The notes below the pieces were generated by a model. The model was not told the DNA's origin. It saw nothing but the letters and a program-made list of their open reading frames with translations, and made no database searches. Shown here piece after piece: positions 22,044 to 37,388 of a stretch of DNA of 64,000 bases; position 1 is the stretch's first letter, and the number at the start of each line of letters is the position of its first letter. Source of the stretch: Candidatus Xianfuyuplasma coldseepsis (lineage in GTDB: Bacteria; Bacillota_I; Bacilli_A; Izemoplasmatales; Izemoplasmataceae); the NCBI RefSeq assembly GCF_014023125.1, contig NZ_CP048914.1:1144698-1208697 (forward strand), written 5' to 3'. The translations under genes were made by a program, and so were the position numbers.

Positions 22044-24362
22044 TTAATTAACAGTACTAAATTTTAACATCTCAAAGATACTTTTATCAATTAAATAGTA
22101 GTAAGTGACACCATCAATCTTTTTCTCTGAAATTAGTTTTTCTTCTTTTAATAACTTAATTCGATTCTCTATTCTTGACGTTTTTACTTTGATTTGATTA
22201 TAAAGATTATCTGCTGATTTCTCTCCACTAGAAAGAAAGTCTAGAATACTGTAAATTACTATATCTGAACAAAGTTCAAAAATACGATTTGAGTGATTAG
22301 TTTTTTGGTTAGACTTATTATTGAATTCTTTTGAGTAAATGATACGTAAACTATTTATTACAGCAATTAGTGAAACTCCCACATCGGCGAATATAGCTGC
22401 CAACATAGAACTGAGCCCAAATGCCGCTAGGGAAACTACAAAGAATTTTAGTCCAATTGTTAACGCAATATTCTGATAAACTATTCTTTTAGTCTTTAGA
22501 GATATTTTTCTAGCCAAGGGTATTTTTGTAAGGTCATTATTCATAATTATTATATCAGCAACATCAATAGCTATTTCGCTACCTTGTCCCATTGCTACTC
22601 CAATATCTGCATTTTTTAATAGTGGAGCATCATTTATTCCATCACCAACGAACATCTTGTATTGATCACTTTGAATATTATTGTATTCTTCAATTTTTTG
22701 TTCAGGTAGAAGTCCACTTTTGAAGTTGATTCCTAATTCATTGGCTATTTTACTTGCAATGTATTTATTGTCACCTGTCAACATTGTGATATCTATACCT
22801 TTTAAGCTATCGATTGCTACTTTTGCTGTTTCGTGTATTTCATCTTCTATAACTACTTGTCCAACGAACTCATTTTCAATAGCTACAAGAACTGATGTTG
22901 TATCTTCGTTCAGGTTAGTATAGATAATATCATTTTCATTCATCAATTGTCTGTTACCTACTAAAACAATCTTTCCTTCAATGATACCAGATATACCTTT
23001 TCCGCTAATTTCCTTTACATCTTTTACTTCATATAATGGTCCTTTATAGTATTCAACTATAGAACTAGCAATTGGATGGTTACTAAATGCTTCAATTGAT
23101 GCTGCAAGCTTCAACGTTTCATCATTTGAATAACTAGAAACTGTAAAATTACCTTTTGTTAGAGTACCTGTTTTATCTATAGCAATATTGTCAATATTTG
23201 CCAACATATCTAAATATGTACTACCTTTAAATAAGATTCCATTTCTAGCAGAAGCACCAATTCCAGAGAAATAAGTTAAAGGAATACTTAATACTAATGC
23301 GCACGGACAACTGATAACTAAAAAGATTGCAGCTCTATACAAGTACACTTCCATACCGGAAGGATTTATCAATGTAGGGATGGTAAACATTAGAAGCGCT
23401 AAAACTGCTACAGTTGGTGTGTATATTTTTGCAAACTTAGTAATGAAATTTTCAGGTGTTGCTTTATTATTTGTTGAGTTTTCAATTAAATCAATGATTT
23501 TTGCAACTGTAGAATCTTTATACATTTTAGTTGCCTTAACCTTGATTACTGAACCTACATTGATATTACCACTTAGGATTTCATCTCCTTTGTTTACTAT
23601 TGTCAATTTCGACTCACCAGTTAATGCGGAGGTATTAATTGATGTATTTCCATCGATTACAATACCGTCTACTGGGATTTTTTCACCATTCTTAACAAGC
23701 AATACATCATCGATACTAATTTCTTCCGGAGTTTTTATGATCGTTTCACCATTTATTAAAACATTTGCATATTCTATTTTCAGATCAACAAGCCCTTTTA
23801 TTTCACCACGGCTTTTTTTAACTGCTCTGTTTTGCAAAAATTCTCCAAATGTGTAGAATAATACAACCAATACTGCTTCATTAAATTCACCAAGTAACAT
23901 CGCAACAACTGTTGCAACAATCATTAAGGTGTTTTCATTGAAGAAGTCTTTTCTGTAAAGACCTTTGAATGTCTTTATAAGAATGTTTTTACTAATTAGT
24001 ATATATCCAATCCATCTTAATGCAATCGAGATATTAATATTCATTTTATTTTCAAATAAGAATGCTGTTGAGGTTATGACTATTCCTAAAAGAAAAGCAT
24101 TTATGATTATTCTTTTCTTCATCTTTGTTGACTCACTATTAGGCAAATGCGTATCTACTCCTGTTTCAATAGAATCTACGATTTTTTTAATTTCAATAAG
24201 TGCTTCATTCTCATTATATTTATCTGTCACATCTAACAACATGGTTTGTGTGTTGAAATTAAATGAAGCATTGTCAATATATGAAAGACTTTTAAGTTCG
24301 GTTTCGATTTTACTTGTACAACTTGTGCACATTAGGTTTTCCATAATTATCTTTTTTATCAT
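22044..24362 (-). CDS. P1B-type Zn/Cd ATPase with C-terminal ArsR-like winged-helix domain
   Basis: 772 residues. Order: HMA domain (MENLMCTSCTSKI, about 7-70), membrane segments, actuator with TGES, CPC metal helix (SCPCALVLSIPL, about 350), phosphorylation site DKTGTLTKG (about 394), ATP domain GDGINDAPLL, last membrane pair ending near 670. CPC followed by IPLTYFSGIGASARNGILFKG is of the Zn/Cd (ZntA/CadA) class rather than CopA. After the last membrane segment an extra 80-100 residues follow: IVIYSILDFLSSGEKSADNLYNQI...RIENRIKLLKEEKLISEKKIDGVTYYYLIDKS, a winged helix like ArsR repressors. The frame is continuous, so this is a true fusion here. Own regulated promoter at 24400-24458. Confidence 0.9.
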   Translation of the reverse strand: MIKKIIMENLMCTSCTSKIETELKSLSYIDNASFNFNTQTMLLDVTDKYNENEALIEIKKIVDSIETGVDTHLPNSESTKMKKRIIINAFLLGIVITSTAFLFENKMNINISIALRWIGYILISKNILIKTFKGLYRKDFFNENTLMIVATVVAMLLGEFNEAVLVVLFYTFGEFLQNRAVKKSRGEIKGLVDLKIEYANVLINGETIIKTPEEISIDDVLLVKNGEKIPVDGIVIDGNTSINTSALTGESKLTIVNKGDEILSGNINVGSVIKVKATKMYKDSTVAKIIDLIENSTNNKATPENFITKFAKIYTPTVAVLALLMFTIPTLINPSGMEVYLYRAAIFLVISCPCALVLSIPLTYFSGIGASARNGILFKGSTYLDMLANIDNIAIDKTGTLTKGNFTVSSYSNDETLKLAASIEAFSNHPIASSIVEYYKGPLYEVKDVKEISGKGISGIIEGKIVLVGNRQLMNENDIIYTNLNEDTTSVLVAIENEFVGQVVIEDEIHETAKVAIDSLKGIDITMLTGDNKYIASKIANELGINFKSGLLPEQKIEEYNNIQSDQYKMFVGDGINDAPLLKNADIGVAMGQGSEIAIDVADIIIMNNDLTKIPLARKISLKTKRIVYQNIALTIGLKFFVVSLAAFGLSSMLAAIFADVGVSLIAVINSLRIIYSKEFNNKSNQKTNHSNRIFELCSDIVIYSILDFLSSGEKSADNLYNQIKVKTSRIENRIKLLKEEKLISEKKIDGVTYYYLIDKSIFEMLKFSTVN

Positions 24363-24399: not shown

Positions 24400-24421
24400 T
24401 ATATGAGTGTTTGCTCATATA
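24400..24421. promoter_or_regulatory. ArsR-type operator at the transcription start of the ATPase gene
   Basis: Perfect 8-bp inverted repeat TATATGAG/CTCATATA with 6-bp spacer, placed just downstream of the minus-strand -10 (24427-24432). Pattern and position match operators of ArsR/SmtB metal repressors. A near-copy lies at 25221. Confidence 0.65.
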
Positions 24422-24426
24422 TAATG

Positions 24427-24458
24427 ATTCTAACTCTCAAATGTGTCGGAAATGTGTT
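24427..24458 (-). promoter_or_regulatory. Response-regulator box plus -10 of the ATPase gene (AACACA class)
   Basis: On the minus strand: AACACA, 5 bp (TTTCC), GACACA, 9 bp, TAGAAT. No -35 hexamer; the 11-bp direct repeat takes its place. Spacing is identical to seven other promoters in the island. Confidence 0.65.
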
Positions 24459-24478
24459 AAACACATATTTGTAAGTAT

Positions 24479-24934
24479 TTATTCATGGAAACTGGAGTAG
24501 AAGTTTGAAATCTCTACTGTACCGATATAGAACTCAGTTATTATACCATTCTCTACAACCATCAAAGTTGGAGTTGAAGTTAATTCCTCACCAAAAGGTA
24601 AAATTAGGATGTCCTTGGACCCCTTAATTCTAGTTGCATCCATCATATATACAGGTAAATCATCTTCATACTGCTTAAAAAAGCTTAAAGAGGATGTTTT
24701 GATGTTCTGACATGCTCCACAACTTTCTGAGTAAAAGTATAGAAGAAATTTTTGATCATCTATTGAATAAATGTCATCATAATTGTTTATTTCATCAAAA
24801 CTTGAGTACTTTAGTTCTTCTGATGAAGCTTCAAATACAATTATCAATACAATTAAAGTAAGGAAAATCGTACCGAATCCAATCAGGACATTTCTGAAAA
24901 AATGATCCGATTTTCTATGTTTTTTCCTAGACAT
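24479..24934 (-). CDS. Membrane-anchored thioredoxin-like protein
   Basis: 151 residues: basic N-terminus (SRKKHRKSDH), one membrane anchor (about 15-35), then a thioredoxin fold outside the cell with active site SESCGACQNI, cis-Pro segment TSTPTLMVVENG and a final strand/helix. Likely a thiol oxidoreductase or thiol guard for metal-stressed envelope proteins. Close paralogue of the gene at 27339-27797 (more than half of the C-terminal 70 residues identical by eye). Overlaps the HMA gene by 8 bases, so both are made from one message starting near 25241. Confidence 0.8.
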   Translation of the reverse strand: MSRKKHRKSDHFFRNVLIGFGTIFLTLIVLIIVFEASSEELKYSSFDEINNYDDIYSIDDQKFLLYFYSESCGACQNIKTSSLSFFKQYEDDLPVYMMDATRIKGSKDILILPFGEELTSTPTLMVVENGIITEFYIGTVEISNFYSSFHE

Positions 24935-25187
24935 ATTCTTTACCTTTGACTTTGATACTTTCTAACAAATAAGTATTGATACCAGACTCAATCGAGTCTA
25001 CAATTTTTTTTATTTCCAATAATGACTCATTGGAGTTGAAGTCATTGGTGACTGTGATTTCCATAATTTGAGAATTGAAATCAAAAAGTGCAGCACTCAC
25101 ATACTTTAGATTCTTCAGTTCGTTGATTATTTTGTTTGTACAACCATTACATGCAAGATTTTCCATAGCAATTCTTTTTTTTAACAT
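24927..25187 (-). CDS. HMA-domain metal-binding protein (chaperone-like)
   Basis: 86 residues, one HMA domain with metal motif NLACNGCTNK (CxxC). Strikingly like the N-terminal domain of the 22044-24362 ATPase (shared LLEIKKIVDSIE-G segment), so it probably arose by duplication and may hand metal to that pump. RBS AGAGGTG. First gene of a two-gene minus-strand operon with the thioredoxin-like gene, under the promoter/operator at 25221-25279. Confidence 0.85.
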   Translation of the reverse strand: MLKKRIAMENLACNGCTNKIINELKNLKYVSAALFDFNSQIMEITVTNDFNSNESLLEIKKIVDSIESGINTYLLESIKVKGKEYV

Positions 25188-25220: not shown

Positions 25221-25242
25221 TATATGAATATCCGTTCATACA
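25221..25242. promoter_or_regulatory. ArsR-type operator upstream of the HMA-thioredoxin operon
   Basis: TATATGAA, 6 bp, TTCATACA: inverted repeat with one mismatch, same half-site and spacing as at 24400, and again starting 6 positions downstream of the -10 (25248-25253 on the minus strand). Confidence 0.6.
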
Positions 25243-25247
25243 TTGGT

Positions 25248-25279
25248 ATTTTATATCTCAAATGTGTTGGAAATGTGTT
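25248..25279 (-). promoter_or_regulatory. Response-regulator box plus -10 of the HMA-thioredoxin operon (AACACA class)
   Basis: Minus strand: AACACA, TTTCC, AACACA, 9 bp, TAAAAT. The repeat unit is nearly identical to 24427-24458 (about 23 matching bases with one difference). The divergent regulator gene 25306 has its own TATAAT at 25285-25290, so the box may also affect it. Confidence 0.65.
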
Positions 25280-25305: not shown

Positions 25306-25986
25306 ATGAAGATTATGATTTTAGAAGATAACATCGAAATAAATAGAATTCTAAGTGAGTCGTTTCAAAATGAAGGTTATGAGGTAGCATCATTTTATAA
25401 TGCCTTTGATGCTATTGAAGCATTCAAACATGATAAATTTCATTGTGTGTTAACAGATTTGATGCTTCCTATAATGAGTGGTGAGCAATTTATAAAAAAA
25501 ATAAGAGTTGATTACTATGGACTAATTATTGCTATTACAGCAAAGGTAAATGATTCTGACAAGTTAAAGGTGCTTGAACTTGGTGCCGATGATTATATAA
25601 CTAAGCCTTTTAACAAAAGAGAGGTGTTATTAAAAGTTAATAACTATATAAAAAAGATCACAAGAAGCAATCACACTACCTCTTTAAATGGAGGGGAGTT
25701 TATTTATGATTTTCACAATAATAACTTGAGAATTAATAAGAATGAAATCATCTTAACTAGTATAGAATATTTAACATTGGGTGAGTTAGTTAAGTCTTTA
25801 AACAAAATTATTACAAGAGAATCCATTCTACAAAATATCTATTACGACGATGTTGATGTTTTTGACAGAGTGATTGATGGACACATAAAAAAACTTCGAA
25901 AAAAAATCAAAGAACATACAGCAACAGAATACATTAAAACTGTTTATGGTATGGGTTATAAATTAGTTGGTGTAGTTGATGAATAG
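25306..25986 (+). CDS. OmpR-family response regulator (system 1)
   Basis: 226 residues from ATG 25306 (RBS TTAGGAGGT). Receiver domain 1-115: acidic pair EDN, phosphorylated Asp in LTDLMLPIMSG, Thr in IAITAK, Lys in YITKPF. C-terminal winged helix of the OmpR/PhoB type ending YIKTVYGMGYKLVG. Overlaps the kinase gene by 8 bases. About half identical by eye to the second regulator at 32712. Best candidate to bind the AACACA-class boxes next to it. Confidence 0.92.
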   Translation: MKIMILEDNIEINRILSESFQNEGYEVASFYNAFDAIEAFKHDKFHCVLTDLMLPIMSGEQFIKKIRVDYYGLIIAITAKVNDSDKLKVLELGADDYITKPFNKREVLLKVNNYIKKITRSNHTTSLNGGEFIYDFHNNNLRINKNEIILTSIEYLTLGELVKSLNKIITRESILQNIYYDDVDVFDRVIDGHIKKLRKKIKEHTATEYIKTVYGMGYKLVGVVDE

Positions 25987-27238
25987 TTTATATAAATTGT
26001 CTAGAAAAAGAGTTCTAATTTTAATTGGTTCATTTCTTTTCCTTGTTTTATTCGGTGTTTCTTCGGTAGCTTATTTAGTTAATCAATATTACCGAGAACA
26101 GTTAGTTGAAATTGAAAATGAACGTTTTGTTGAATTTTTTGAACACGATTTCAAGTTTTCAGGTGAAGAAAGTGCGATTGATTTAGCGAAACACTATGCA
26201 CATGTAAACAACCTTCAACTTATAATAACTGATGATAGTGATAGTATTATCTATGAAACTGAAAAACCCGTTGAAGAGTTTTCCATTTATAGCATTGAAG
26301 TCAATGAAAGCCTATATAGTATAAAAATTGATTATTCTAATAGTAGGATTTTGCTTGTAAGGGATAAAGAAATTATGATTATGTACTACATTATAATATC
26401 CGTATATACCATAACAATTGTTTACATTGTTATATCTAGGAGATTAAAAAACAAAAGAATACTATCGGATTTAGGACAAATAGAATATTTGATATCTAAT
26501 AAACAACGAATGAAAAACTCTTTTCATTATGAAGAACTAGCTAGATTGTTTGATACTTTTAATGAGTTTTCATCAAAATTAGATCTATTACAGGAGAAGA
26601 GAAAAGATGGATTTAATGCTTTAGCTCATGATCTCAAAACTCCGATAACTATTTTGCTAAATCATCTTGAGGGCATTACAGAAACCGATGAGTTATTCAA
26701 AAATAAAGAGGCCATTTTAGAATCTTTAAGAAATCTTAGTTCAACTGCTAGTGATTTAGTAAGTGAGAATTTCCAAGGTATAAGTACTAGATTTAATATT
26801 TCTAAAGCTCTAAAGAAGGAGTTGCCAAAGTACACATCATCGTTCGCTTCTAGGAACATGAAAATTAAAGATTATATACTAGATGATTTGTATGTAGAAT
26901 GGAATAGAACAGATTTCTCAAGAGTTTTAGGTAATCTACTCACAAATGCATTCTACTATAGTGATAAAGATACAGAAGTGACTGTACAGTTGATTAACGG
27001 AAGTGAAACATACTCTCTTGTTGTTATAAATTACGGTGAGTTAATTAATGATGAGAATTTGGAAAGGATTTTCGAAAAGAATGTTAGGATTTCTGAAGAA
27101 GGTGACGACACAGGAAACGGAATAGGATTATATATCACAAAACTATTAGTCCAAGAGGCTGGTGGAACTATAAAAGCTACTAGTTCTCAGGAGTTCAATA
27201 GATTTGAAATAACCCTCCCAAAGTGGATAGAAGATTAA
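25979..27238 (+). CDS. Sensor histidine kinase (system 1)
   Basis: 419 residues from ATG 25979. Membrane segments near 12-34 and 120-142 flank an extracytoplasmic sensor of about 85 residues (EEFSIYSIEVNESLYSIKIDY). H-box ALAHDLKTPITILLNHLEG, N-box LGNLLTNAFYYSDKD, and G-box GNGIGLYITKLLV are intact, so it should autophosphorylate. Sensor has no obvious Cys/His metal site. Paired with the regulator before it. Confidence 0.92.
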   Translation: MNSLYKLSRKRVLILIGSFLFLVLFGVSSVAYLVNQYYREQLVEIENERFVEFFEHDFKFSGEESAIDLAKHYAHVNNLQLIITDDSDSIIYETEKPVEEFSIYSIEVNESLYSIKIDYSNSRILLVRDKEIMIMYYIIISVYTITIVYIVISRRLKNKRILSDLGQIEYLISNKQRMKNSFHYEELARLFDTFNEFSSKLDLLQEKRKDGFNALAHDLKTPITILLNHLEGITETDELFKNKEAILESLRNLSSTASDLVSENFQGISTRFNISKALKKELPKYTSSFASRNMKIKDYILDDLYVEWNRTDFSRVLGNLLTNAFYYSDKDTEVTVQLINGSETYSLVVINYGELINDENLERIFEKNVRISEEGDDTGNGIGLYITKLLVQEAGGTIKATSSQEFNRFEITLPKWIED

Positions 27239-27338: not shown

Positions 27339-27797
27339 TTATTTACCATAATTGTCATAATAATTTTGAATTTCTACAGTACCAACTAGAAATTGAGTAA
27401 TTATTCCATTTTCTACCACCATGAGAGTAGGTGTTGAGCTTAGACTTTCACCAAATGGTAAGTTTAAACTATCTTTTGATCCTCTTATTCTGTCAGCATC
27501 TAACATGTATACGGGTAACTCGTCTTTGTTTTCGTCAAAGAAGTTTAGTGAAGTAGCCTTAATCTGTTGACAATATGGGCAACTATCTGAATAGTAATAT
27601 AGTAAATATTTCTGATCACTGATATTTTTTACTTCTTCATATGATGATACATTCTCAAAATCCTTATATTTTAGTTCATCTGAAGTTATATTGTAAATAA
27701 TTAACATACCTATTAATATTACAAACATTGAACCAAAAATAATAAGTACATTTCTAATGAAGTTGTCTTTACTACGTCTTTTTCGTTTTTTTGCCAT
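27339..27797 (-). CDS. Membrane-anchored thioredoxin-like protein, second copy
   Basis: 152 residues: basic start (AKKRKRRSKD), membrane anchor, then thioredoxin fold with active site SDSCPYCQQI and STPTLMVVENGIITQF. Paralogue of 24479-24934 but with CPYC instead of CGAC, the glutaredoxin/DsbA-like dipeptide, implying a different redox potential. Located downstream of the DUF302 gene on the same strand (69-base gap); it could share that regulated transcript. An imperfect T-rich hairpin lies past its stop (about 27300-27340). Confidence 0.8.
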   Translation of the reverse strand: MAKKRKRRSKDNFIRNVLIIFGSMFVILIGMLIIYNITSDELKYKDFENVSSYEEVKNISDQKYLLYYYSDSCPYCQQIKATSLNFFDENKDELPVYMLDADRIRGSKDSLNLPFGESLSSTPTLMVVENGIITQFLVGTVEIQNYYDNYGK

Positions 27798-28406: not shown

Positions 28407-29471
28407 ATGAGAAGTATAACACATAAAATTTCTATACCAAGTATTGTTAAGATAGAAAAAGGTTCATTTGATTTAATTGGGGATATATTAATTGATGACA
28501 ATATAGAAAGAGTCATCATAATAATAGATCAAAACATGCATAATATATTGTCAGAACGGATTGATAAGCAGTTTAAGAAAATCAAAATAGAATTTAGTTT
28601 CCTAATTGTGGATACTAATCTTTCACTTAGAAAGTTAAGTAAGACTGCATATAATTTAGATAATAAGACTCAATTATTGTTAGGTATTGGTGGAGGTAGC
28701 ATTATTGATAGAACAAAGTACATTAGCTATTTAAGAAAAATACCTTGGATTAGTATTCCCACATCACCTTCTAACGATGGGATTTCATCACCTCTTTCAT
28801 CCTTATATATAGATAATAAAAGAGTAAGTGTTCCAGCTAAAATGCCATATGGAATAATTATAGATACAAATATTATTATGAACAGTCCTTATCATATGAT
28901 AATGTCCGGTATTGGAGATAGTGTGTCTAATATAACAGCTGTATATGATATGGAGTTAGAAAGTAAACACACCAGAAATCAAAAAGATGATTTCTCAGTT
29001 ATTTTTTCACTTCAGAGCATCAGTTCCTTAATGGGTCTACCTATTATGAATGTAAGAAGCGAAAAATTTATCGAGAGTCTTTTAACCTCCTTGGTAATGA
29101 GTGGAATTGCAATGGAAATGTCAGGAACGTCTAAACCTTCAAGTGGATCAGAACATTTAATCAGTCATGCAATTGATCAAGTACTAGAAATAAATAACTA
29201 TCCACATGGTATTCAAGTTGGACTTTCAACGTATATTGTAAGCCGTGTTCAAGAAAACTGTAGTAAGGAAATTAACATGTTTTTCACTAAGACCGGATTT
29301 TGGGAGTATGTTGAAGAATTGAAAATAAAGAAATCAGTTATAGTTGAAGCCATAAAATTGGCACCTTTCATAAAGGAGAATAGATATACTATTTTAAGTA
29401 ATCAAGAGTACATTGATAAGGCGATTAGAATTCTTGATGAAGATGAATATCTAAAAAGAGTACTTTTTTGA
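28407..29471 (+). CDS. sn-Glycerol-1-phosphate dehydrogenase-like (iron-containing ADH superfamily)
   Basis: 354 residues. Nucleotide motif LLGIGGGSIIDRTKY, then PTSPSNDGISSPLSSLY as in G1PDH/AraM, and metal ligands Asp in SGIGDSVSN, His in SGSEHLISHAID and His in NYPHGIQVG. G1PDH reduces dihydroxyacetone phosphate to sn-glycerol-1-phosphate with NAD(P)H, the backbone of archaeal-type ether lipids and of a few Bacillus lipids. The two partner prenyl transferase genes are not in the window. Its promoter has the metal-island box, so it is induced with copper genes by inference. A polyol dehydrogenase role remains possible. Confidence 0.8.
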   Translation: MRSITHKISIPSIVKIEKGSFDLIGDILIDDNIERVIIIIDQNMHNILSERIDKQFKKIKIEFSFLIVDTNLSLRKLSKTAYNLDNKTQLLLGIGGGSIIDRTKYISYLRKIPWISIPTSPSNDGISSPLSSLYIDNKRVSVPAKMPYGIIIDTNIIMNSPYHMIMSGIGDSVSNITAVYDMELESKHTRNQKDDFSVIFSLQSISSLMGLPIMNVRSEKFIESLLTSLVMSGIAMEMSGTSKPSSGSEHLISHAIDQVLEINNYPHGIQVGLSTYIVSRVQENCSKEINMFFTKTGFWEYVEELKIKKSVIVEAIKLAPFIKENRYTILSNQEYIDKAIRILDEDEYLKRVLF

Positions 29472-29561: not shown

Positions 29562-32036
29562 ATGAAAAAAACAGACAACACATTAGATTTTAAGATAGAT
29601 GGTATGACTTGTAGTACTTGTGCAAATACTGTTGAGAAAAAGTTAGATTCTTTAGAAGGTGTCTCAATAGCGAATGTCAATATTGCTACTGAAAAAGGGC
29701 ATGTTGTTTTTGATTCTACTAAGATAGACGAATCTAAAATTTATGCTGCAGTTTCAGAAGCTGGATACAAGGCTGTTATAAATAAAGAGTCTAGTATAGA
29801 AAAGGTAACTATGAGAGTTGATAACATGACATGTTCATCTTGTGCTATCAGCATAGAAAAAATACTTGATACACTTGAAGGAGTCGTTTCTGCAAATGTA
29901 AACTTCGCTGTAGAAAAAGTAACAATAGAGTACGATAAAAATCAATTAAGATTAGTTGATATTCAAAACAAAGTATCTGAAATTGGTTATGAGATTAAGT
30001 TGGAGAGCACGAATGAAGATGTAGATGAAGATGAAATCAAGATAAAAAAAGCCGCAAAAAAAATGTGGATATCAATTGGTTTATCTACATTAATTATGAT
30101 AATCATGGTGGTTCACATGTTTATTACACCAGTCCCTGGTTATCTCGCAATTACAGCAATATTAGGAATACCAATTATATTTGGTACAGGATTACACGTA
30201 CATAAAGGAAGTTTCAAAGCACTAAGAAACTGGAATCCTAATATGGACGTATTAGTAACGTTGGGATCATTACCTCCTTATCTAATTGGACTACTTGGTT
30301 TCTTTATACCCGTTACAACATTTATTGAAATGGCAACAACAATCATGACTTTTCACCTTATTGGTAAATATTTAGAAATTCGTGCAAAAGGTAGAGCATC
30401 ACAGGCTATTAAGAAATTATTAGAAATGGGTGCGAAAACAGCAAAAGTAATTATTGATGGCAAAGAAGTAGAAATGCCAGTATCAGATTTACAAGTTGGA
30501 GATATAATGGTTGTTAGACCTGGAGAAAAAGTACCTACTGATGGGATTATCATAGAAGGAAAAGGACTTCTTGATGAGTCGATGGCAACAGGAGAATCAA
30601 TGCCTGTTAAAAGAGTAGTTGGGGATGAACTGATAGGGGCAACTATCAATAAACAAGGACTATTAAAAGTAGAAGTATCAAAAATTGGTAAAGATACATT
30701 TTTGTCTCAAGTTGTAAAAATGATGGAAGAGTGTCAAGGGTCAAAAGTACCTATTCAAGAGTTTGCAGATAGAATAACTGGATATTTTGTACCAGCTATT
30801 ATGATTATTACTCTGTTAACTTTTATCTCATTTAATTTATTTCCTGGATTCCATCTAGGTATTGTTGAATGGGGAGCAAGATTCTTACCTTGGGTTAATC
30901 CTGATTTATCTCCTCTCACATTATCATTTATTACTGCAACAGCAGTATTGGTAATCTCGTGTCCATGTGCATTAGGTCTTGGTACACCTACAGCATTGAT
31001 GGTAGGTAGTGGAATGGGTGCAGAAAAAGGAATTTTAATTCGTAATGGTGAAGCTATCCAAACATTTAAGAGTGTTACAGCTGTAGCCTTTGATAAAACT
31101 GGAACAATTACGAAAGGGAAACCTGAAGTAACTGACATCATCTCATATAATAACACTTCAAATTCGGACATTTTATTCTATTCTGCCTCAGTTGAACATG
31201 GTTCAGAACATCCATTATCAAATGCAATCGTAGAAAAAGCCGAGATAGAAGGTATTAAAATTGATAATGTGAAAGACTTTGAAGTAATCGTAGGAATGGG
31301 TGTAAAAGGTACCGTTAAAAAACAAAATGTACTAATTGGTAATCGTAAACTTATGACTACAAATGACATCGAGTACTCTACAATTGAAAGTGATTTAATA
31401 AAGCTAGAAGAAGAAGCTAAAACAGCTATGATTATGGCACTTGAGAATAAGATAGTTGCAGTAATTGCAGTAGCCGATCCGATTAAAGAAGAATCTGCTC
31501 AGGCAATTGAGTTGCTAACAAAAATGGGCTTAACAACAGTTATGATAACAGGAGATAATAAAAGAACTGCAAATGCAATTGGACGTAAAGTAGGAATCAC
31601 TCATGTGGTTGCTGAAGTGTTGCCAGATGGTAAAGTTGATGAAGTTAAACGTCTTCAAGAGAAGTTTGGTACAGTTGCAATGGTCGGTGATGGAATCAAT
31701 GATGCGCCAGCTTTAAAACAAGCTAACGTTGGAATTGCAATTGGAACTGGAACTGATATCGCTATAGAGGCAGCTGACGTAACACTTGTCAGAGGAGAAC
31801 TAACTGGAATTGTTTCGGCAATAAGATTATCAAGAGCTATCTTTAGAAAGATTAAAGAAAACTACTTCTGGGCATGGATTTATAATGCGGTATTTATTCC
31901 AATAGCAGTTATAGGGTTACTACATCCGCTTATCGGTGCAGCAGCGATGGCCATGAGTTCACTAAATGTAGTATATAACTCATTAAGATTGAAAAAACAA
32001 GATATAGAACCTAAATTAGTTACAAGATCAGTTTAA
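29562..32036 (+). CDS. copA: Copper-exporting P1B-type ATPase CopA
   Basis: 824 residues. Two N-terminal HMA domains (GMTCSTCANT at about 15-24 and NMTCSSCAIS at about 87-96), eight membrane segments, actuator TGES, metal helix CPC (ISCPCALGLGTPTALMVGSG, about 463), phosphorylation site DKTGTITKG (about 509), HP motif SEHPLS, GDGINDAPAL and a final helix pair with MSSLNVVYNSLRL. The CPC plus the downstream YN and MxxS motifs are those of Cu+ exporters. RBS AAAGGAGA. Followed by copZ and csoR with short gaps, one operon with a terminator at 32585. Confidence 0.96.
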   Translation: MKKTDNTLDFKIDGMTCSTCANTVEKKLDSLEGVSIANVNIATEKGHVVFDSTKIDESKIYAAVSEAGYKAVINKESSIEKVTMRVDNMTCSSCAISIEKILDTLEGVVSANVNFAVEKVTIEYDKNQLRLVDIQNKVSEIGYEIKLESTNEDVDEDEIKIKKAAKKMWISIGLSTLIMIIMVVHMFITPVPGYLAITAILGIPIIFGTGLHVHKGSFKALRNWNPNMDVLVTLGSLPPYLIGLLGFFIPVTTFIEMATTIMTFHLIGKYLEIRAKGRASQAIKKLLEMGAKTAKVIIDGKEVEMPVSDLQVGDIMVVRPGEKVPTDGIIIEGKGLLDESMATGESMPVKRVVGDELIGATINKQGLLKVEVSKIGKDTFLSQVVKMMEECQGSKVPIQEFADRITGYFVPAIMIITLLTFISFNLFPGFHLGIVEWGARFLPWVNPDLSPLTLSFITATAVLVISCPCALGLGTPTALMVGSGMGAEKGILIRNGEAIQTFKSVTAVAFDKTGTITKGKPEVTDIISYNNTSNSDILFYSASVEHGSEHPLSNAIVEKAEIEGIKIDNVKDFEVIVGMGVKGTVKKQNVLIGNRKLMTTNDIEYSTIESDLIKLEEEAKTAMIMALENKIVAVIAVADPIKEESAQAIELLTKMGLTTVMITGDNKRTANAIGRKVGITHVVAEVLPDGKVDEVKRLQEKFGTVAMVGDGINDAPALKQANVGIAIGTGTDIAIEAADVTLVRGELTGIVSAIRLSRAIFRKIKENYFWAWIYNAVFIPIAVIGLLHPLIGAAAMAMSSLNVVYNSLRLKKQDIEPKLVTRSV

Positions 32037-32061
32037 ATTATATATATTAAAGGAGAAAAAT

Positions 32062-32274
32062 ATGAAAAAAGAATTACATATTGAAGGTATGACTTGCAAA
32101 CATTGCTCTATGAAGGTTGAAAATAAACTTTTAGAGATTTGTGGTGTTTCAAGTGTTGAAGTAAATGTAGATTCAAAGACAGCAATAGTTCAGTTGAATC
32201 ATGAAGTTAGTGACTTGACATTTGAAGAGAGTATTGGATCTATTGGTTATACTCTTTTAGAAATCAAAAAATAA
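32062..32274 (+). CDS. copZ: Copper chaperone CopZ
   Basis: 70 residues, a single HMA ferredoxin-like domain with GMTCKHCSMKVE. Carries Cu+ in the cytoplasm to CopA. 25 bases after copA, RBS AAAGGAGA. Confidence 0.93.
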   Translation: MKKELHIEGMTCKHCSMKVENKLLEICGVSSVEVNVDSKTAIVQLNHEVSDLTFEESIGSIGYTLLEIKK

Positions 32275-32309
32275 GTCATTATAAAATTACAGTTTAAAGG
32301 AGTAACAAT

Positions 32310-32564
32310 ATGGATAATAAGACAATAAATATTTTAAAAACTTCCCGAGGTCAAATTGATGCAGTTATTAGAATGGCTGAAGAAGGTAGATATTGTGTCG
32401 ATATATTGAACCAGATTTTAGCTACACAGGCTTTGCTAAAGAAGGCAAACTTGAAAATCTTAGAAGATCATATTAGAGGATGTGTGAAAAACTCATTTGA
32501 AAATGGTGATTCTAATAGTAAAATTGACGAAGTAATTGAAATTATTGATACGTACTTGAAATGA
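32310..32564 (+). CDS. csoR: Copper-sensing repressor CsoR
   Basis: 84 residues, all-helical CsoR/RcnR fold. Cu+ ligands of CsoR are present in order: Cys in RYCVDIL, His in EDHIRGC, Cys four residues later in RGC; start motif RGQIDAVIRM. When Cu+ binds, CsoR leaves DNA. The GC-tract inverted repeat at 29513-29533 is its likely target. Last gene of copA-copZ-csoR. Confidence 0.94.
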   Translation: MDNKTINILKTSRGQIDAVIRMAEEGRYCVDILNQILATQALLKKANLKILEDHIRGCVKNSFENGDSNSKIDEVIEIIDTYLK

Positions 32565-32584
32565 CTATAGTTTTGAGTTAAATA

Positions 32585-32613
32585 GAAGATAGGTTGATTT
32601 GACCTATCTTCTT
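32585..32613 (+). terminator. Terminator of copA-copZ-csoR
   Basis: GAAGATAGGT/ACCTATCTTC perfect 10-bp stem with T-rich tail. Confidence 0.85.
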
Positions 32614-32711
32614 AATTCATATAGACTAGTTACATTTTGTTATATGTTATAATAAGAATGTCTAGAATAAATTAGATGTAGTTTAACAAGATGGTTGAAA
32701 GAGGTGTAAAA

Positions 32712-33395
32712 ATGAGAAATATATTAGTACTAGAAGATAACAAGGATATAAATAAGGTGATTACAAACCTATTGACGAAAGCGGGTTATAAAGTGTTCTC
32801 GACTTTTAATGCTTTTGATGCCCTTGAAGTTTTTAAGCAAAACAAAATCGAATGTATTTTAACAGACTTAATGTTACCAATAATGTCTGGTGAGGAGTTT
32901 ATACAGGAAATTCGTAAAGAATCTAATGTTCATATAATCATTATTTCAGCTAAAACAACCAACCCTGATAAACTTGAAGGACTAAAAAAAGGTGCAGATG
33001 ATTATTTGTTTAAGCCATTCTTAGAAGATGAAGTATTAATTAAGATTGAGAATCTGTTTATTAAAAAAGACTATCAGGAAAACATTAAAACTTTTAATGA
33101 TAAAGAAGTGGTATTTGTGGAAGGAAAACCAGAATTAGTACTATCTAATAAAGTAGTTTCATTAACTACTGTAGAGTATCAAATGGTTCGATTACTTATT
33201 CAAGAAAATAACAAAGTCATAACTAGAGATCAATTCATGGATGTTTTATATGCATTTGGTGATGAAGTGTTTGATAGAGTAATCGATGTTCATATAAGAA
33301 ACATACGCAAGAAAATCAAGAAGGTCTATAATAAAGAGATTATCAAGACAGTCTATGGATTAGGGTATTCATTCATAGGTGATTTGGATGAATAA
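32712..33395 (+). CDS. OmpR-family response regulator (system 2)
   Basis: 227 residues from ATG 32712 (AAAGAGGTG 5 bp upstream; ATG at 32691 lies before this RBS). Phospho-acceptor Asp in LTDLMLPIMSGEEF, Ser/Thr in IIISAK, Lys in YLFKPF; winged helix ends KTVYGLGYSFIG. Paralogue of the regulator at 25306. Closest candidate for the six TTAAYA-class boxes. Kinase gene overlaps by 8 bases. A TATAAT at about 32647-32652 is the likely -10; no box of the regulon kind is seen there. Confidence 0.92.
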   Translation: MRNILVLEDNKDINKVITNLLTKAGYKVFSTFNAFDALEVFKQNKIECILTDLMLPIMSGEEFIQEIRKESNVHIIIISAKTTNPDKLEGLKKGADDYLFKPFLEDEVLIKIENLFIKKDYQENIKTFNDKEVVFVEGKPELVLSNKVVSLTTVEYQMVRLLIQENNKVITRDQFMDVLYAFGDEVFDRVIDVHIRNIRKKIKKVYNKEIIKTVYGLGYSFIGDLDE

Positions 33396-34635
33396 ATCTC
33401 TTAACAAGAAATTCAAAAAGAATGTATTAGTTTTGTCAATTATAATTACAATTGTATTCTTGGTAATAAATATTTCTTTATACATTATTAACAATAACTA
33501 TCTTGTGAATAAAGTAGAAGAAGAGAACGCTGCATTCTTGCAAATAACAACACATATCATTAATGAGAATGAAGTTGAAGTGGCACTAGAGTATATCGAA
33601 CATTACACACATATTCACAAAGTGCATATAGAAGTCATGGATGAAAACGAAAATATGCTTTACTCATCTGATGTTGCTCATCTATATTCAAGTCAGTACA
33701 ACATTGAAACGACAAAAGGATTGTTTACGGTATTTATCGATAATACTGATAGTGTTACAGTGAGTACGATTGAAACCAATACAATATACATAAATGTATC
33801 ACTATTGATTATTTATCTATTTTCAATAGTTATTCTATTGAGAAATAACAGACTAACTACCAAAGAGATAAATCAAGATATAGGAAATGTATTAAAACTT
33901 ATTGATAGTGAAAAATTTGATGAAAGCAACTTTAATCATACAGAATTCGAGCATATTCATACAGTTATCACCACCTACCTTGAAAATATTGATTTGTTAA
34001 CCGAACAGAAATCAATGAATATGAAAGGGTTAGCTCATGATATAAAGACCCCATTAACTTTAATATACTCGTATTTTGAAAAGGTACTTAAAAAACAAAC
34101 ATTAAATGAAAAAGAGGCAAAGACATCCTTTGAAGCAGCTGTAAGAATCAATGATCTCTTAAATGATATTATTGAGGATAATAAGCGACAAAGCTCAAAA
34201 GAAATAGAGCTTTCAGCTATATTAAATAATAAGATTGAAGAGTATGCCCCTATCTTTAAGAATAAAGGAATTTCAATTGTCAAAAATATTGAAGAGAGTA
34301 TAACTTTTAGATGGAGTGAGAAAGATTTTGTAAGGGTGATTGATAATTTGATTTCAAATGCATACTATTATTCTAAAGATTCATCTGTATTTGAAGTGAA
34401 TGTCAAGAATGAAGAACGAGTTCTAATCGAATTCATTTCTACTCCAATAAATATTAATGACATTGAAAAAGATAAGATTTTCAATAAGGGGTTCCGTGGA
34501 TCATTAAGTTTTGACAATAATAGTTATGGAAAAGGATATGGTTTATATTTGTGTAGATTATTATTAAGCTCAATTGGCGGCTCAGTTAGTATAGATTTAA
34601 TAAATGAAAATGTGAAGTTTACAATTATTTTGTAA
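33388..34635 (+). CDS. Sensor histidine kinase (system 2)
   Basis: 415 residues from ATG 33388. Two membrane segments (about 13-37 and 135-155) enclose an extracytoplasmic sensor with several His (HITHIINENEVEVALEYIEHYTHIHKVH) that could touch metal. H-box LAHDIKTPLTLIYSYFEK, N-box VIDNLISNAYYYSKDS, G-box GKGYGLYLCRLLL. Similar layout to the system 1 kinase, so the two systems are likely a duplication. Confidence 0.92.
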   Translation: MNKSLNKKFKKNVLVLSIIITIVFLVINISLYIINNNYLVNKVEEENAAFLQITTHIINENEVEVALEYIEHYTHIHKVHIEVMDENENMLYSSDVAHLYSSQYNIETTKGLFTVFIDNTDSVTVSTIETNTIYINVSLLIIYLFSIVILLRNNRLTTKEINQDIGNVLKLIDSEKFDESNFNHTEFEHIHTVITTYLENIDLLTEQKSMNMKGLAHDIKTPLTLIYSYFEKVLKKQTLNEKEAKTSFEAAVRINDLLNDIIEDNKRQSSKEIELSAILNNKIEEYAPIFKNKGISIVKNIEESITFRWSEKDFVRVIDNLISNAYYYSKDSSVFEVNVKNEERVLIEFISTPININDIEKDKIFNKGFRGSLSFDNNSYGKGYGLYLCRLLLSSIGGSVSIDLINENVKFTIIL

Positions 34636-34637
34636 TC

Positions 34638-34669
34638 TTCACATTTCTTTAATATTTATTGTATACAAT
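34638..34669 (+). promoter_or_regulatory. Response-regulator box plus -10 of the SHOCT/Cys small-protein operon
   Basis: TTCACA, TTTCT, TTAATA, 9 bp, TACAAT; begins 3 bases after the kinase stop codon. Confidence 0.6.
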
Positions 34670-34686
34670 CTAAGTGGGTGGTAAAA

Positions 34687-35013
34687 ATGAAAAAGAAAAA
34701 AGGACTAATTTATGTTTTATTAAGTATTTCAATTGGATATCTATTTTATAATTATTTATTTACAGATTATGGTTTCGGAATGATGAATCATCATTACGGA
34801 TATTACGATGATTATTCAAGGATCACGTACTATTTAAATAGTAGTTTGGTATTTATATCATATACAATTATAATTGTTTCGACATTAATCTTGATAACTA
34901 GTAAAACAGAATCCAAGGATTATTCTATGACTTTCCTTGATGAACGACTTTCAAAAGGTGAAATCTCTGTTGATGAATACCGAAAAATAAAAGGAGTTAT
35001 CAACAAAAAATGA
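34687..35013 (+). CDS. Membrane protein with C-terminal SHOCT domain
   Basis: 108 residues from ATG 34687 (GTGGGTGG upstream). Two membrane segments (about 5-22 and 53-72) with a Met/His/Tyr-rich outside loop (GFGMMNHHYGYYDDY) that could bind copper, and a cytoplasmic SHOCT motif FLDERLSKGEISVDEYRKIK. SHOCT is a short helical oligomerisation motif. First gene of an operon with the next three small genes; stop overlaps the next ATG. Confidence 0.75.
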   Translation: MKKKKGLIYVLLSISIGYLFYNYLFTDYGFGMMNHHYGYYDDYSRITYYLNSSLVFISYTIIIVSTLILITSKTESKDYSMTFLDERLSKGEISVDEYRKIKGVINKK

Positions 35014-35153
35014 TTGGTATTGCCTTATTAGTAGGTATAGTTTTAATATTTGTAGTTGCAACATTCTTGAATGGAAGAACAGAGGTTCCTGAAGAATGTC
35101 GTGAACTAGCAGATGAGTGTGTATCATGTCATGGTCATAGCATAGGAGAGTAG
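35010..35153 (+). CDS. 47-residue single-pass protein with C-x6-C-x2-C-H tail
   Basis: Small gene starting ATG 35010, overlapping the previous stop as ATGA. One N-terminal membrane helix (GIALLVGIVLIFVVATFL) and a tail ECRELADECVSCHGHS. Size and layout recall FeoB-associated Cys-rich membrane proteins, small metal-binding partners of transporters. The CVSCH would satisfy CxxCH of c-type haem, but no cytochrome maturation genes are seen and the tail is too short for a cytochrome. Most likely a metal-binding tail; inference from context. Confidence 0.65.
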   Translation: MIGIALLVGIVLIFVVATFLNGRTEVPEECRELADECVSCHGHSIGE

Positions 35154-35161
35154 GTGAAATT

Positions 35162-35344
35162 ATGATGATTTTATGGTTTGTAATTATAGGAGCTTTGGTT
35201 TATTTTCTAGTAAAAGGTGACTTTAGTTTGGGTTCAATACAAGGTCGAAGTGCTGACAGTCATCTAGATGAAAGACTTGCTAAAGGTGAAATTAGTATCG
35301 AAGAATATCAAGAATTAAAAACTACCCTGAAGGAGAAAAGATAA
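35162..35344 (+). CDS. SHOCT-domain small membrane protein
   Basis: 60 residues: one membrane helix (ILWFVIIGALVYFLV) and a SHOCT motif HLDERLAKGEISIEEYQELKTTL, nearly the same as the C-terminus of the 34687 protein. Probably oligomerises with it. RBS AGGTGAAA. The stop overlaps the start of the next gene. Confidence 0.72.
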   Translation: MMILWFVIIGALVYFLVKGDFSLGSIQGRSADSHLDERLAKGEISIEEYQELKTTLKEKR

Positions 35345-35772
35345 TGAATATAATCAAGATAGGTTTAGTATTATTAACAGGAGCAGGTTTCGGGTTTGGA
35401 GTAGATAAACTTGCTGACACAGAAATGTTCCCGAAAGACTATGATGGTTATGGGCACATGGAAGATGATGGTTATTATGGACACATGGGTGGAGGATGCC
35501 ATGGTGATGGTGATTTCTTAGAGCACATGTTAGATGAGCTTTCTGATGAAGAATTATTATTAGTTCAAGGAAAAATTGATGAATTACTTATAGAGTATTC
35601 AATTACACTTGAAGAGCTTAATGATAATTATGAAGTTAGATATGATTTCATGAATGATTTGATGGATTTTCTAGAAGAAAATGAAATAGATTATCACAAC
35701 CATGGTGGTAATCACGATCATGACGATCACGATGATGAAGATGATTGGCATGGTGGAATGGGAATGCATTAA
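35344..35772 (+). CDS. His/Asp/Met-rich exported protein, probable metal sponge
   Basis: 142 residues. Short hydrophobic N-terminus (IIKIGLVLLTGAGFGFGV), then GYGHMEDDGYYGHMGGGCHGDGD, a helical acidic middle (about 60-115), and a C-terminus of HNHGGNHDHDDHDDEDDWHGGMGMH. Such His/Asp/Met clusters bind Cu or Zn. Likely anchored outside the membrane. No enzyme motif. Last gene of the small-protein operon, followed by a strong terminator. Confidence 0.72.
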   Translation: MNIIKIGLVLLTGAGFGFGVDKLADTEMFPKDYDGYGHMEDDGYYGHMGGGCHGDGDFLEHMLDELSDEELLLVQGKIDELLIEYSITLEELNDNYEVRYDFMNDLMDFLEENEIDYHNHGGNHDHDDHDDEDDWHGGMGMH

Positions 35773-35798
35773 AGGTTTGTTAACTCAAACCTTTTTTT
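35770..35798 (+). terminator. Terminator of the small-protein operon
   Basis: AAAGGTTTG/CAAACCTTT stem, 6-nt loop, T7 tail. Confidence 0.85.
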
Positions 35799-35803
35799 CT
35801 TTC

Positions 35804-35835
35804 TACATATTTCCTTAACATTTGAGTAGTATATT
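35804..35835 (+). promoter_or_regulatory. Response-regulator box plus -10 of cueP
   Basis: TACATA, TTTCC, TTAACA, 9 bp, TATATT. Confidence 0.6.
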
Positions 35836-35857
35836 TGTATATGATAGGAGGAATAAT

Positions 35858-36391
35858 ATGAAAAAAATAATATTGATTGTAACAGTATTACTTGTAACAT
35901 TAACACTGAGTGCATGTTCAAGTAACAATGATCTAGCAAGTGTAGGATTAGAAGGTATGAGTGGTAAAGAGATATTGATGGGTGTAGCTGATGGAAGTAT
36001 CGAAGTAGAAGGATTTGGATTATCAGTTTATGATGATGAGCTAGTAGTAATTTTGGATGATACAAGAATATCAGTTGATATGCCTGAAGATGAGTTTTAT
36101 CTTTCAGTTGCACCATTTATTGACACGACACATGAATGTGCATTTCATAGCGCTACAGGTTGTAGAGGCGAAATGAAACAAGAAGAGTTTCATGTAGAAT
36201 TTATTGATTTAGATGGCAACATCATTGTATCAGAGAGTATGATGTCGATGAGTAATGGTTTTATTGATTTGTGGTTACCAAGAGACTTAGAAGGAACATT
36301 GACAATTACACAAGGTGATTTAACTGCAGTTAAATTAATTTCAACAGAAGCAGGAGAACCAACTTGTGAGACAACAATGCAATTGACATGA
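35858..36391 (+). CDS. cueP: CueP-family copper-binding lipoprotein
   Basis: 177 residues from ATG 35858 (ATAGGAGGA upstream). Lipobox LTLSAC (Cys20). The mature part matches CueP: HECAFHSATGCRGEM, GFIDLWLPRDLEGTLTI and a closing PTCETTMQL; the three conserved Cys fall in the expected places. In Salmonella CueP is the main periplasmic copper protein and helps supply copper to enzymes. Here it is a lipoprotein on the outer face of the membrane. The next HMA gene overlaps by 4 bases. Confidence 0.88.
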   Translation: MKKIILIVTVLLVTLTLSACSSNNDLASVGLEGMSGKEILMGVADGSIEVEGFGLSVYDDELVVILDDTRISVDMPEDEFYLSVAPFIDTTHECAFHSATGCRGEMKQEEFHVEFIDLDGNIIVSESMMSMSNGFIDLWLPRDLEGTLTITQGDLTAVKLISTEAGEPTCETTMQLT

Positions 36392-36780
36392 TCAAACTTA
36401 TAGTAACGAACATGTCATGCGGACACTGTCAACTTAAAATTAATGCAGAGTTAGAAGCAAACAACTATAAAGTAGTAAAAATAGATATGAGTAAAAATTC
36501 AGTACTTATTAATACAAGTAGTGATCAAGTAAACAAAATAAAAAGAATTCTAGATAGTATTAATTATGTAGTAGATAATGAGACACCTGTATTAGATATT
36601 GAAGAACATACAATATGGGATGACAAACTAGATGATGACTTAAACTATGAAACATTTACAACATACTTATTTAATAATGAAATAAGTATAATTGGATTTA
36701 ATGATGAAGATTTCGGAGTTATTATATTGTGTACTGTAACTCAGTTACATGATGCAGTTGAATATATTAACCAAATGTAA
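36388..36780 (+). CDS. HMA-domain protein with C-terminal extension
   Basis: 130 residues. N-terminal HMA domain with NMSCGHCQLKI (CxxC) up to about residue 70, then an acidic domain of 60 residues (DDKLDDDLNYETFTTYLF...EDFGVIILCTVTQLHDAVEYI) not recognised. Translationally coupled to cueP. May pass copper between cytoplasmic partners; CueP itself is outside, so the two do not meet directly. Confidence 0.8.
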   Translation: MIKLIVTNMSCGHCQLKINAELEANNYKVVKIDMSKNSVLINTSSDQVNKIKRILDSINYVVDNETPVLDIEEHTIWDDKLDDDLNYETFTTYLFNNEISIIGFNDEDFGVIILCTVTQLHDAVEYINQM

Positions 36781-36788
36781 TATAAAAT

Positions 36789-36866
36789 GATAACATTATA
36801 TTTACTGGATGCTTTCTCTTCTCCCTTACACACTTCCCCTAAATTTTCATCCAGTAAAGTGTTATC
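36789..36866 (+). other. Long stem-loop in the leader of the BFD-like gene
   Basis: GATAACA...TTTACTGGATG pairs with CATCCAGTAAA...TGTTATC; the 36-nt loop is almost free of G and rich in C/T. It lies between the HMA gene and the BFD-like gene and ends 21 bases before the start codon. May be a processing or regulatory element; no T-run after it, so not a plain terminator. Confidence 0.5.
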
Positions 36867-36886
36867 TATAATAAAAGGAGAAAACA

Positions 36887-37075
36887 ATGGAAAAAGAAGT
36901 ATTATGCTGTTGCCACAATGTAACACTTGAAGATGTAAAAGAGCAGATAATCTTAGGTGTTGATAATTTTGAAGACCTGCAAGAAATAACAAAAATCGGG
37001 ACGGATTGTCCACCTTGTAAAGAAAAAAATGAGAAACTATTTAAAATATTGTTAGAAGAAGAAATTAAAGGGTAA
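36887..37075 (+). CDS. BFD-like [2Fe-2S]-binding small protein
   Basis: 62 residues with Cys at CCCHN (residues 7-9) and DCPPC (41-44), the C-x-C...x31...C-x2-C spacing of bacterioferritin-associated ferredoxin-like domains, with the helix-turn-helix between them (TLEDVKEQIILGVDNFEDLQEI). Binds a [2Fe-2S] cluster or, in copper clusters (as in CopZ fusions), accompanies copper transfer. RBS AAAGGAGA. Preceded by the long stem-loop, followed by two T-rich hairpins. Confidence 0.82.
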   Translation: MEKEVLCCCHNVTLEDVKEQIILGVDNFEDLQEITKIGTDCPPCKEKNEKLFKILLEEEIKG

Positions 37076-37127
37076 ATTCTTTTTGAAATTCACAAAAAAA
37101 GTGTTTGCTTTTTTATAGATTAACACG

Positions 37128-37157
37128 TAAAGACAGACAAAATATCTGTCTTTTTTT
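37128..37157 (+). terminator. Terminator after the BFD-like gene
   Basis: AAAGACAGA/TCTGTCTTT stem with 7-nt loop and T tail; a weaker A-run/T-run hairpin precedes it at about 37094-37118. Confidence 0.85.
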
Positions 37158-37163
37158 AGTATC

Positions 37164-37195
37164 TTCATAATTACTTAATATTATTATTAGACAAT
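37164..37195 (+). promoter_or_regulatory. Response-regulator box plus -10 of the copB operon
   Basis: TTCATA, ATTAC, TTAATA, 9 bp, GACAAT. Confidence 0.6.
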
Positions 37196-37217
37196 GTAGA
37201 TATAAGGAGTTGATATT

Positions 37218-37358
37218 ATGAAATTTCTACAAAAAATAAGTGTATATATGTTATTGATTACAGGGTTATATGTCTTTTTGTTCTTGTTAGATGAGAGTAA
37301 GGTTGACAAATATATGAATGTAATTAATACTAAAAAATTAAAATTACAAAATCAATAA
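37218..37358 (+). CDS. 46-residue single-pass membrane protein upstream of copB
   Basis: ATG 37218 with RBS AAGGAG; one membrane helix (SVYMLLITGLYVFLFLL) and a basic tail (INTKKLKLQNQ). Ends 30 bases before copB in the same transcript. Might assist the pump as a small subunit; no family recognised. Confidence 0.55.
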   Translation: MKFLQKISVYMLLITGLYVFLFLLDESKVDKYMNVINTKKLKLQNQ

Positions 37359-37388
37359 TTGAAGATTAATCTTTTTGGAGGAGAAAAC

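Follow-up and report, generated by a model that had tools for sequence, protein, structure and literature searches.

P1B-type Zn/Cd/Pb ATPases (CadA/ZntA, TIGR01512) have an HMA domain, the motifs CPC, DKTGT and GDGIND and a last membrane helix that contains D, and their C-terminus lies in the cytosol. In the pump-arsR operons of the Izemoplasmatales the pump and its ArsR-type partner are two separate proteins, and the operator lies between the -35 and -10 elements. An ArsR-family repressor is also found at the membrane in the SdpI/SdpR system, where the membrane protein SdpI holds the repressor SdpR; these are separate proteins and no transport is involved. The alpha5 metal ligands of ArsR-type sensors are D84/H86/H97/H100 in CzrA and D101/H103/H114/E117 in CadC, and some DNA-binding members of the family (HlyU) are also without metal sites (PMC1665450). 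The gene described here joins a pump of the first kind to a winged helix of the ArsR kind in one polypeptide, and so resembles SdpI/SdpR in principle only, as an ArsR domain at the membrane, but differs in being a single chain and a transporter.

The fused gene and its distribution

The gene lies in a stretch of 64,000 nucleotides (the window) from the chromosome of Candidatus Xianfuyuplasma coldseepsis, a free-living wall-less bacterium whose chromosome of 1,958,905 bases is one contig. The open reading frame (22044-24362, minus strand) runs through 772 residues in a single frame without interruption; residues 1-676 form the pump and residues 677-772 (22047-22334, minus strand) the winged helix. 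The pump part matches the HMA (at the N-terminus), E1-E2 ATPase, HAD hydrolase and TIGR01512/TIGR01525 models, and with 474 bits it is well placed within TIGR01512 (curated cut-off 313.5). The motifs C352-P-C354, D396KTGT and G573DG-ND are present and invariant in the 28 sequences compared. It shares the features of the CadA/ZntA-type ATPases, including the D-containing last membrane helix, and is about 40–60% identical to relatives, but unlike such ATPases it carries the extra winged helix. Judged by its family, the fused pump would move Zn and Cd.

The first-pass annotation had proposed this fusion, and a search for other pumps with such a C-terminus confirms it. The fused frame is found without a stop in 5 of 90 genomes of the order, namely this one, G012, G008, G044 and G060, of which G044 is a complete genome. 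Homologous in-frame fusions in four other assemblies exclude a local error of sequencing or assembly. A junction profile, used at E limits of 1e-50 and 1e-40 and of limited sensitivity for distant pumps, found no fusion outside the order in 395 genomes of the class or in 392 genomes of the phylum (a sample that overlaps the first), and none among 20 listed plasmid records. The literature searched, mostly open-access, describes no pump-ArsR fusion and, as far as it shows, the fusion is undescribed.

The fused copies of G044, G060 and G008 are 98.7–99.9% identical in DNA and yet spread over two families, and transposase- or recombinase-like genes surround them, which points to recent horizontal transfer of the module. 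Between these near-identical copies the tail shows 0–3 synonymous and 2–3 non-synonymous changes, too few for dN/dS, and the three distinct fused lineages known are too few to measure selection within each. The chromosome of the window also holds a second, IS-broken copy of the mobile fused-pump module (L053:8394-12541, at about 84,400-88,540), in which the pump is 5'-truncated beside an IS3-type transposase pair while the genes for a Trx-like protein and a CDF transporter are intact.

Origin of the fusion

In most relatives a stand-alone ArsR gene lies directly 3' of the homologous pump gene, often with a start-stop overlap of 4–8 bases or with a few bases in between. Some unfused pairs share one frame (pump-TAA-CAA-ATG in G008, pump-TAA-ATG in G012), so that losing one stop codon would fuse both genes, and the fusion is thus the derived state. 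All fused proteins form one clade of the pump tree (99/99), placed inside the arsR-paired pumps, as fits one fusion event. Besides the fused pump, this genome, G008 and G012 have an unfused pair, the neighbourhood of which is conserved on the chromosome, with a LacI-type regulator and tyrS-like neighbours. The Izemoplasmatales operons have the same pump family and operator as the fused gene and are the likely source of the fusion, with a repressor of the CzrA/SmtB type as the likely ancestral partner of the pump. The ancestral operon would have had a Zn/Cd efflux pump gene directly before a CzrA-type ArsR gene and would have been present in a second copy, and this copy, as the single nested clade suggests, would have lost its stop or frame boundary to give one pump-ArsR polypeptide. 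Today the fused gene belongs to a cluster that is partly mobile and includes a divergently transcribed two-component system, unlike the stand-alone pump-arsR operons examined, which have no such system beside them. Another family of the order has the homologous pump without an ArsR gene after it, and in L035, L036 and L037 the gene that comes next encodes a CBS/CNNM-type membrane protein.

The winged-helix tail

By its predicted winged-helix fold and its sequence relation the tail belongs to ArsR/SmtB, as had been read from its residue pattern at first. The zinc sensor CzrA of S. aureus (PDB 1r1u) is both the best PDB match in a single-sequence phmmer search (E 2e-4) and the top structural match of the predicted tail (mean pLDDT 84, TM about 0.8, 26% identity). 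A profile built on a small set of stand-alone ArsRs matches the tail with E 1e-10. General profiles stay under their cut-offs, which marks the domain as divergent: the NCBIfam SdpR-family (3.6e-7) and HTH_metalloreg (3e-5) models give 24–30 bits where 55–100 are required (NF033788, NF033789), and the Pfam HTH_5 profile gives no match to the tail. From the topology of P1B pumps the domain should face the cytosol; in the full-length model the linker and the domain placement have low confidence. A free repressor made from an internal start is ruled out for the window protein, as no ATG, GTG or TTG occurs in the tail ahead of codon 88. In contrast to CzrA/SmtB repressors, the tail is covalently joined to a pump, its canonical operator-reading residues are gone and, in the window protein, there is no alpha5 site.

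These losses are seen when the three fused lineages are compared with 32 stand-alone ArsRs. All 32 have the recognition helix Q-S-x-x-S-H-Q-L, the positions of which presumably contact DNA (on general knowledge and their conservation), together with a wing G-K and an R-L motif. The former recognition helix of the window protein (residues 728-740; 22143-22181, minus strand) reads T-S-x-x-E-N-R-I, that of L010 (G012) T-V-x-x-Y-R-H-V and that of G044 S-G-x-x-M-K-K-L, while the wing G-K is gone from all fused lineages. Nearly all operator-reading residues are therefore replaced, one Ser being retained in the window protein, and the fused domains differ among themselves at these positions. At alpha5, stand-alone ArsRs have D, H and H plus a C-terminal E or C; G044/G008 have D-H-H-C and G012 D-C-H-E. 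In the window protein the former zinc site (22050-22088, minus strand) is reduced to D759, both His being changed, to S and N, and the chain stopping before the fourth ligand; the protein has neither an alpha3N nor an alpha5 site. The earlier remark that the winged helix has one Cys and no evident metal site was correct.

The fused tails are only 21–25% identical to each other, with pump bodies at 55–59%. Stand-alone ArsRs whose pumps are 50–62% identical have a mean identity of 53% and a minimum of 43% (271 pairs), so that at matched pump identity the fused tail diverges far more (21–25% vs at least 43%). The hydrophobic core is nonetheless kept (at 24/27, 26/28 and 22/29 columns), and codon position two is more conserved in the tail than positions one and three; this argues for selection on the fold and not on operator contact. 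Were the tail a plain relic, which folds but has no function and whose frame merely happened to stay open, its very fast divergence and the loss of metal and DNA residues in the window protein would be expected. We regard this as unlikely, given that the frame is open in three lineages at this distance between their pump bodies, that core hydrophobicity and second codon positions are conserved, and that G044/G008 keep four possible alpha5 ligands.

The net charge of recognition helix and wing is +4 in the window protein, against a mean of +4.3 in stand-alone ArsRs, and a net positive charge is kept in two of the three fused lineages, which leaves room for unspecific or altered DNA binding. DNA contact by the fused pump is unlikely, and there is only a small chance that it binds DNA with changed specificity, or binds the operator paired with a stand-alone ArsR. 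A transporter of that kind, carrying its own DNA-reading domain, would pass information on pumping or metal load straight to its promoter.

Promoters and operators

An ArsR-type operator, ATATGAGTGTTTGCTCATAT (24401-24420; matrix match 24400-24421), lies shortly after the -10 element predicted for the fused pump gene, TAGAAT (24427-24432, minus strand), which was read from the sequence and is spaced as in G012, G044 and G008. Five nucleotides before this hexamer is a direct repeat of 11-bp period, ACACATTTCCG-ACACATTT (24439-24457, minus strand), a putative box for a response regulator of the OmpR family. With a weight matrix trained on 30 pump-arsR operon promoters of other genomes (training minimum 21.4), the operator scores 23.2 bits, against a highest score of 17.9 in 20 simulated windows, which rules out a chance match; the operator of the stand-alone pump in the same genome scores 28.4. 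Two ArsR-type operators had been claimed at first. The one at 24401-24420 is strong, while the weaker one before the HMA-Trx genes (25222-25241; matrix match 25221-25242) scores 14.9, within the chance range, but is correctly placed in its promoter. Exact operator-like sites at chromosome positions 1,372,302 and 1,202,312 were set aside as they lie inside genes, and one at 1,537,240 is intergenic but has no promoter-like context.

The operator of the fused pump has the sequence used in stand-alone pump-ArsR operons, where it sits between TTGACA and the -10 element. The order at the fused pump is unlike this: direct repeat, 5 nt, -10-like hexamer, operator. The same layout is found at both promoters of the window and in G044/G008, and in G012 with a weaker first repeat. 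A second perfect putative response-regulator box, ACACATTTCCA-ACACATTT, is present at 25260-25278 (minus strand), and in the 1.96-Mb genome the perfect direct repeat occurs at exactly two sites, both at promoters of the fused-pump module; the next-best sites have two mismatches and are at control level. A perfect palindrome, ATGTGTTTAACACAT (24452-24466), overlaps the first half of the first box. G044 has a similar ATATGTTTTACACATAT, and a palindrome of the ATGTGTTTAACACAT type is possibly an inverted third half-site.

Neighbouring genes

The weaker operator precedes a probable operon, the first gene of which encodes a stand-alone HMA metal-binding protein (24927-25187, minus strand) that is 59% identical to the HMA domain of the fused pump and probably a duplicated metal chaperone. 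It is followed by a membrane-anchored thioredoxin-like protein (24479-24934, minus strand) with homologues behind the fused pump in G044, G008 and G060. A paralogue of the latter at 27339-27797 (57% identical) is part of the same zinc island, and the thioredoxin-like proteins that travel with the zinc pump are probably outward-facing. Divergent from the operon are genes for an OmpR-family response regulator (25306-25986, plus strand) and its sensor histidine kinase partner (25976-27238, plus strand). Such a divergent pair also adjoins the fused pump in G012, G044 and G008, whereas the short contig of G060 has a transposase-like frame in its place. Homologues of the window regulator adjoin the fused pump in G012 (56% identity) and G044/G008 (50%), and regulators beside fused pumps are 49–56% identical between lineages. 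A regulator with receiver and Trans_reg_C domains, an adjacent kinase and a promoter repeat of about 11-bp period are together consistent with control of the OmpR-family kind.

Further along the window, a gene at 28407-29471 encodes an iron-containing alcohol-dehydrogenase-family protein (Fe-ADH_2) resembling glycerol-1-phosphate dehydrogenases. An adjoining copper-type module (29562-39413) contains a pair of P-type pumps together with a CsoR-like protein (32310-32564). It also has a two-component system of its own (32691-34635), the second in this region, whose regulator shares 46% identity with that of the system next to the fused pump.

Control of the pump and role of the tail

The first-pass annotation noted that no separate ArsR gene lies near, which is true locally. 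On the same chromosome, however, there is one CzrA-type ArsR with a canonical helix (1,482,828-1,483,139), and its own pump carries the same operator as 24401-24420. The simplest reading is that this ArsR would also read the operator of the fused pump. CzrA-type ArsRs are encoded in three of the five fused-pump genomes; no stand-alone one was found in G044 and G060, in both of which the fused module comes with an operator-like site. The module looks like a newcomer in these two genomes, so the absence of ArsR there does not decide between the models, and there may not have been time for decay.

The fused protein had at first been proposed to be a membrane-bound sensor-transporter able to touch DNA at its own promoter. 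In this model the winged helix, while held at the membrane, would bind the operator of its own gene and repress it, the signal being whether the pump is occupied by metal. A cytosolic C-terminus, an ArsR fold with a charge of +4, a good operator directly upstream and the situation in G044/G060 would all agree with this. It is nevertheless quite unlikely, as the residues that read the operator are nearly all replaced and differ from one fused domain to the next, while the operator has kept its ancestral sequence and a matching ArsR is available in trans. Of the earlier interpretation, the fusion itself, the descent from an ArsR and the operators hold good; the two-component system had not been considered.

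We also weighed the idea that the tail acts as a tether, pairing with the stand-alone ArsR at the membrane and so coupling pump abundance to the availability of the repressor, in the manner of SdpI/SdpR. ArsR proteins dimerise (general knowledge; PMC1665450), three of the five genomes could supply a partner, and the SdpR family is the best NCBIfam match of the tail. This match is weak and below its cut-off, however, and G044 and G060 lack a CzrA-type partner, which makes a tether very unlikely.

With the operator-reading residues lost, the pump is probably switched by other regulators. The explanation we favour, and hold to be rather probable, is that the swallowed repressor has become an accessory domain, and that transcription is governed by the two-component system together with an ArsR acting in trans. 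It builds on what can be read in the sequences, namely the fusion and its single origin, the loss of conserved operator-reading residues and, here, of metal residues, and the promoter anatomy. From that anatomy, we infer that the neighbouring response regulator would activate transcription at the direct-repeat box near -35, and that the stand-alone ArsR would hold it down in trans at the old operator. The winged helix would no longer read the operator. It would persist in folded form in the cytosol and tune the pump, most likely through dimerisation or, in the sister lineages with four possible alpha5 ligands, as a regulatory domain that responds to metal. In the window protein, which has lost the metal ligands too, the most likely role is structural or dimerising; conservation of the fold is what suggests dimerisation or pump tuning. 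Counted against this explanation are the lack of a CzrA-type ArsR in G044/G060 and the positive charge kept by helix and wing in two lineages.

Overall, a repressor has been swallowed by the transporter that it controlled, and the unfused state persists in the same genome. In the sister lineages, which lack the DNA-reading residues but have four possible metal ligands, the sequences suggest that a transcription sensor has turned into an allosteric metal-binding domain of the pump. A general question thereby becomes testable: what a repressor domain turns into when it is joined to a pump in the membrane, and how other regulators take over control.
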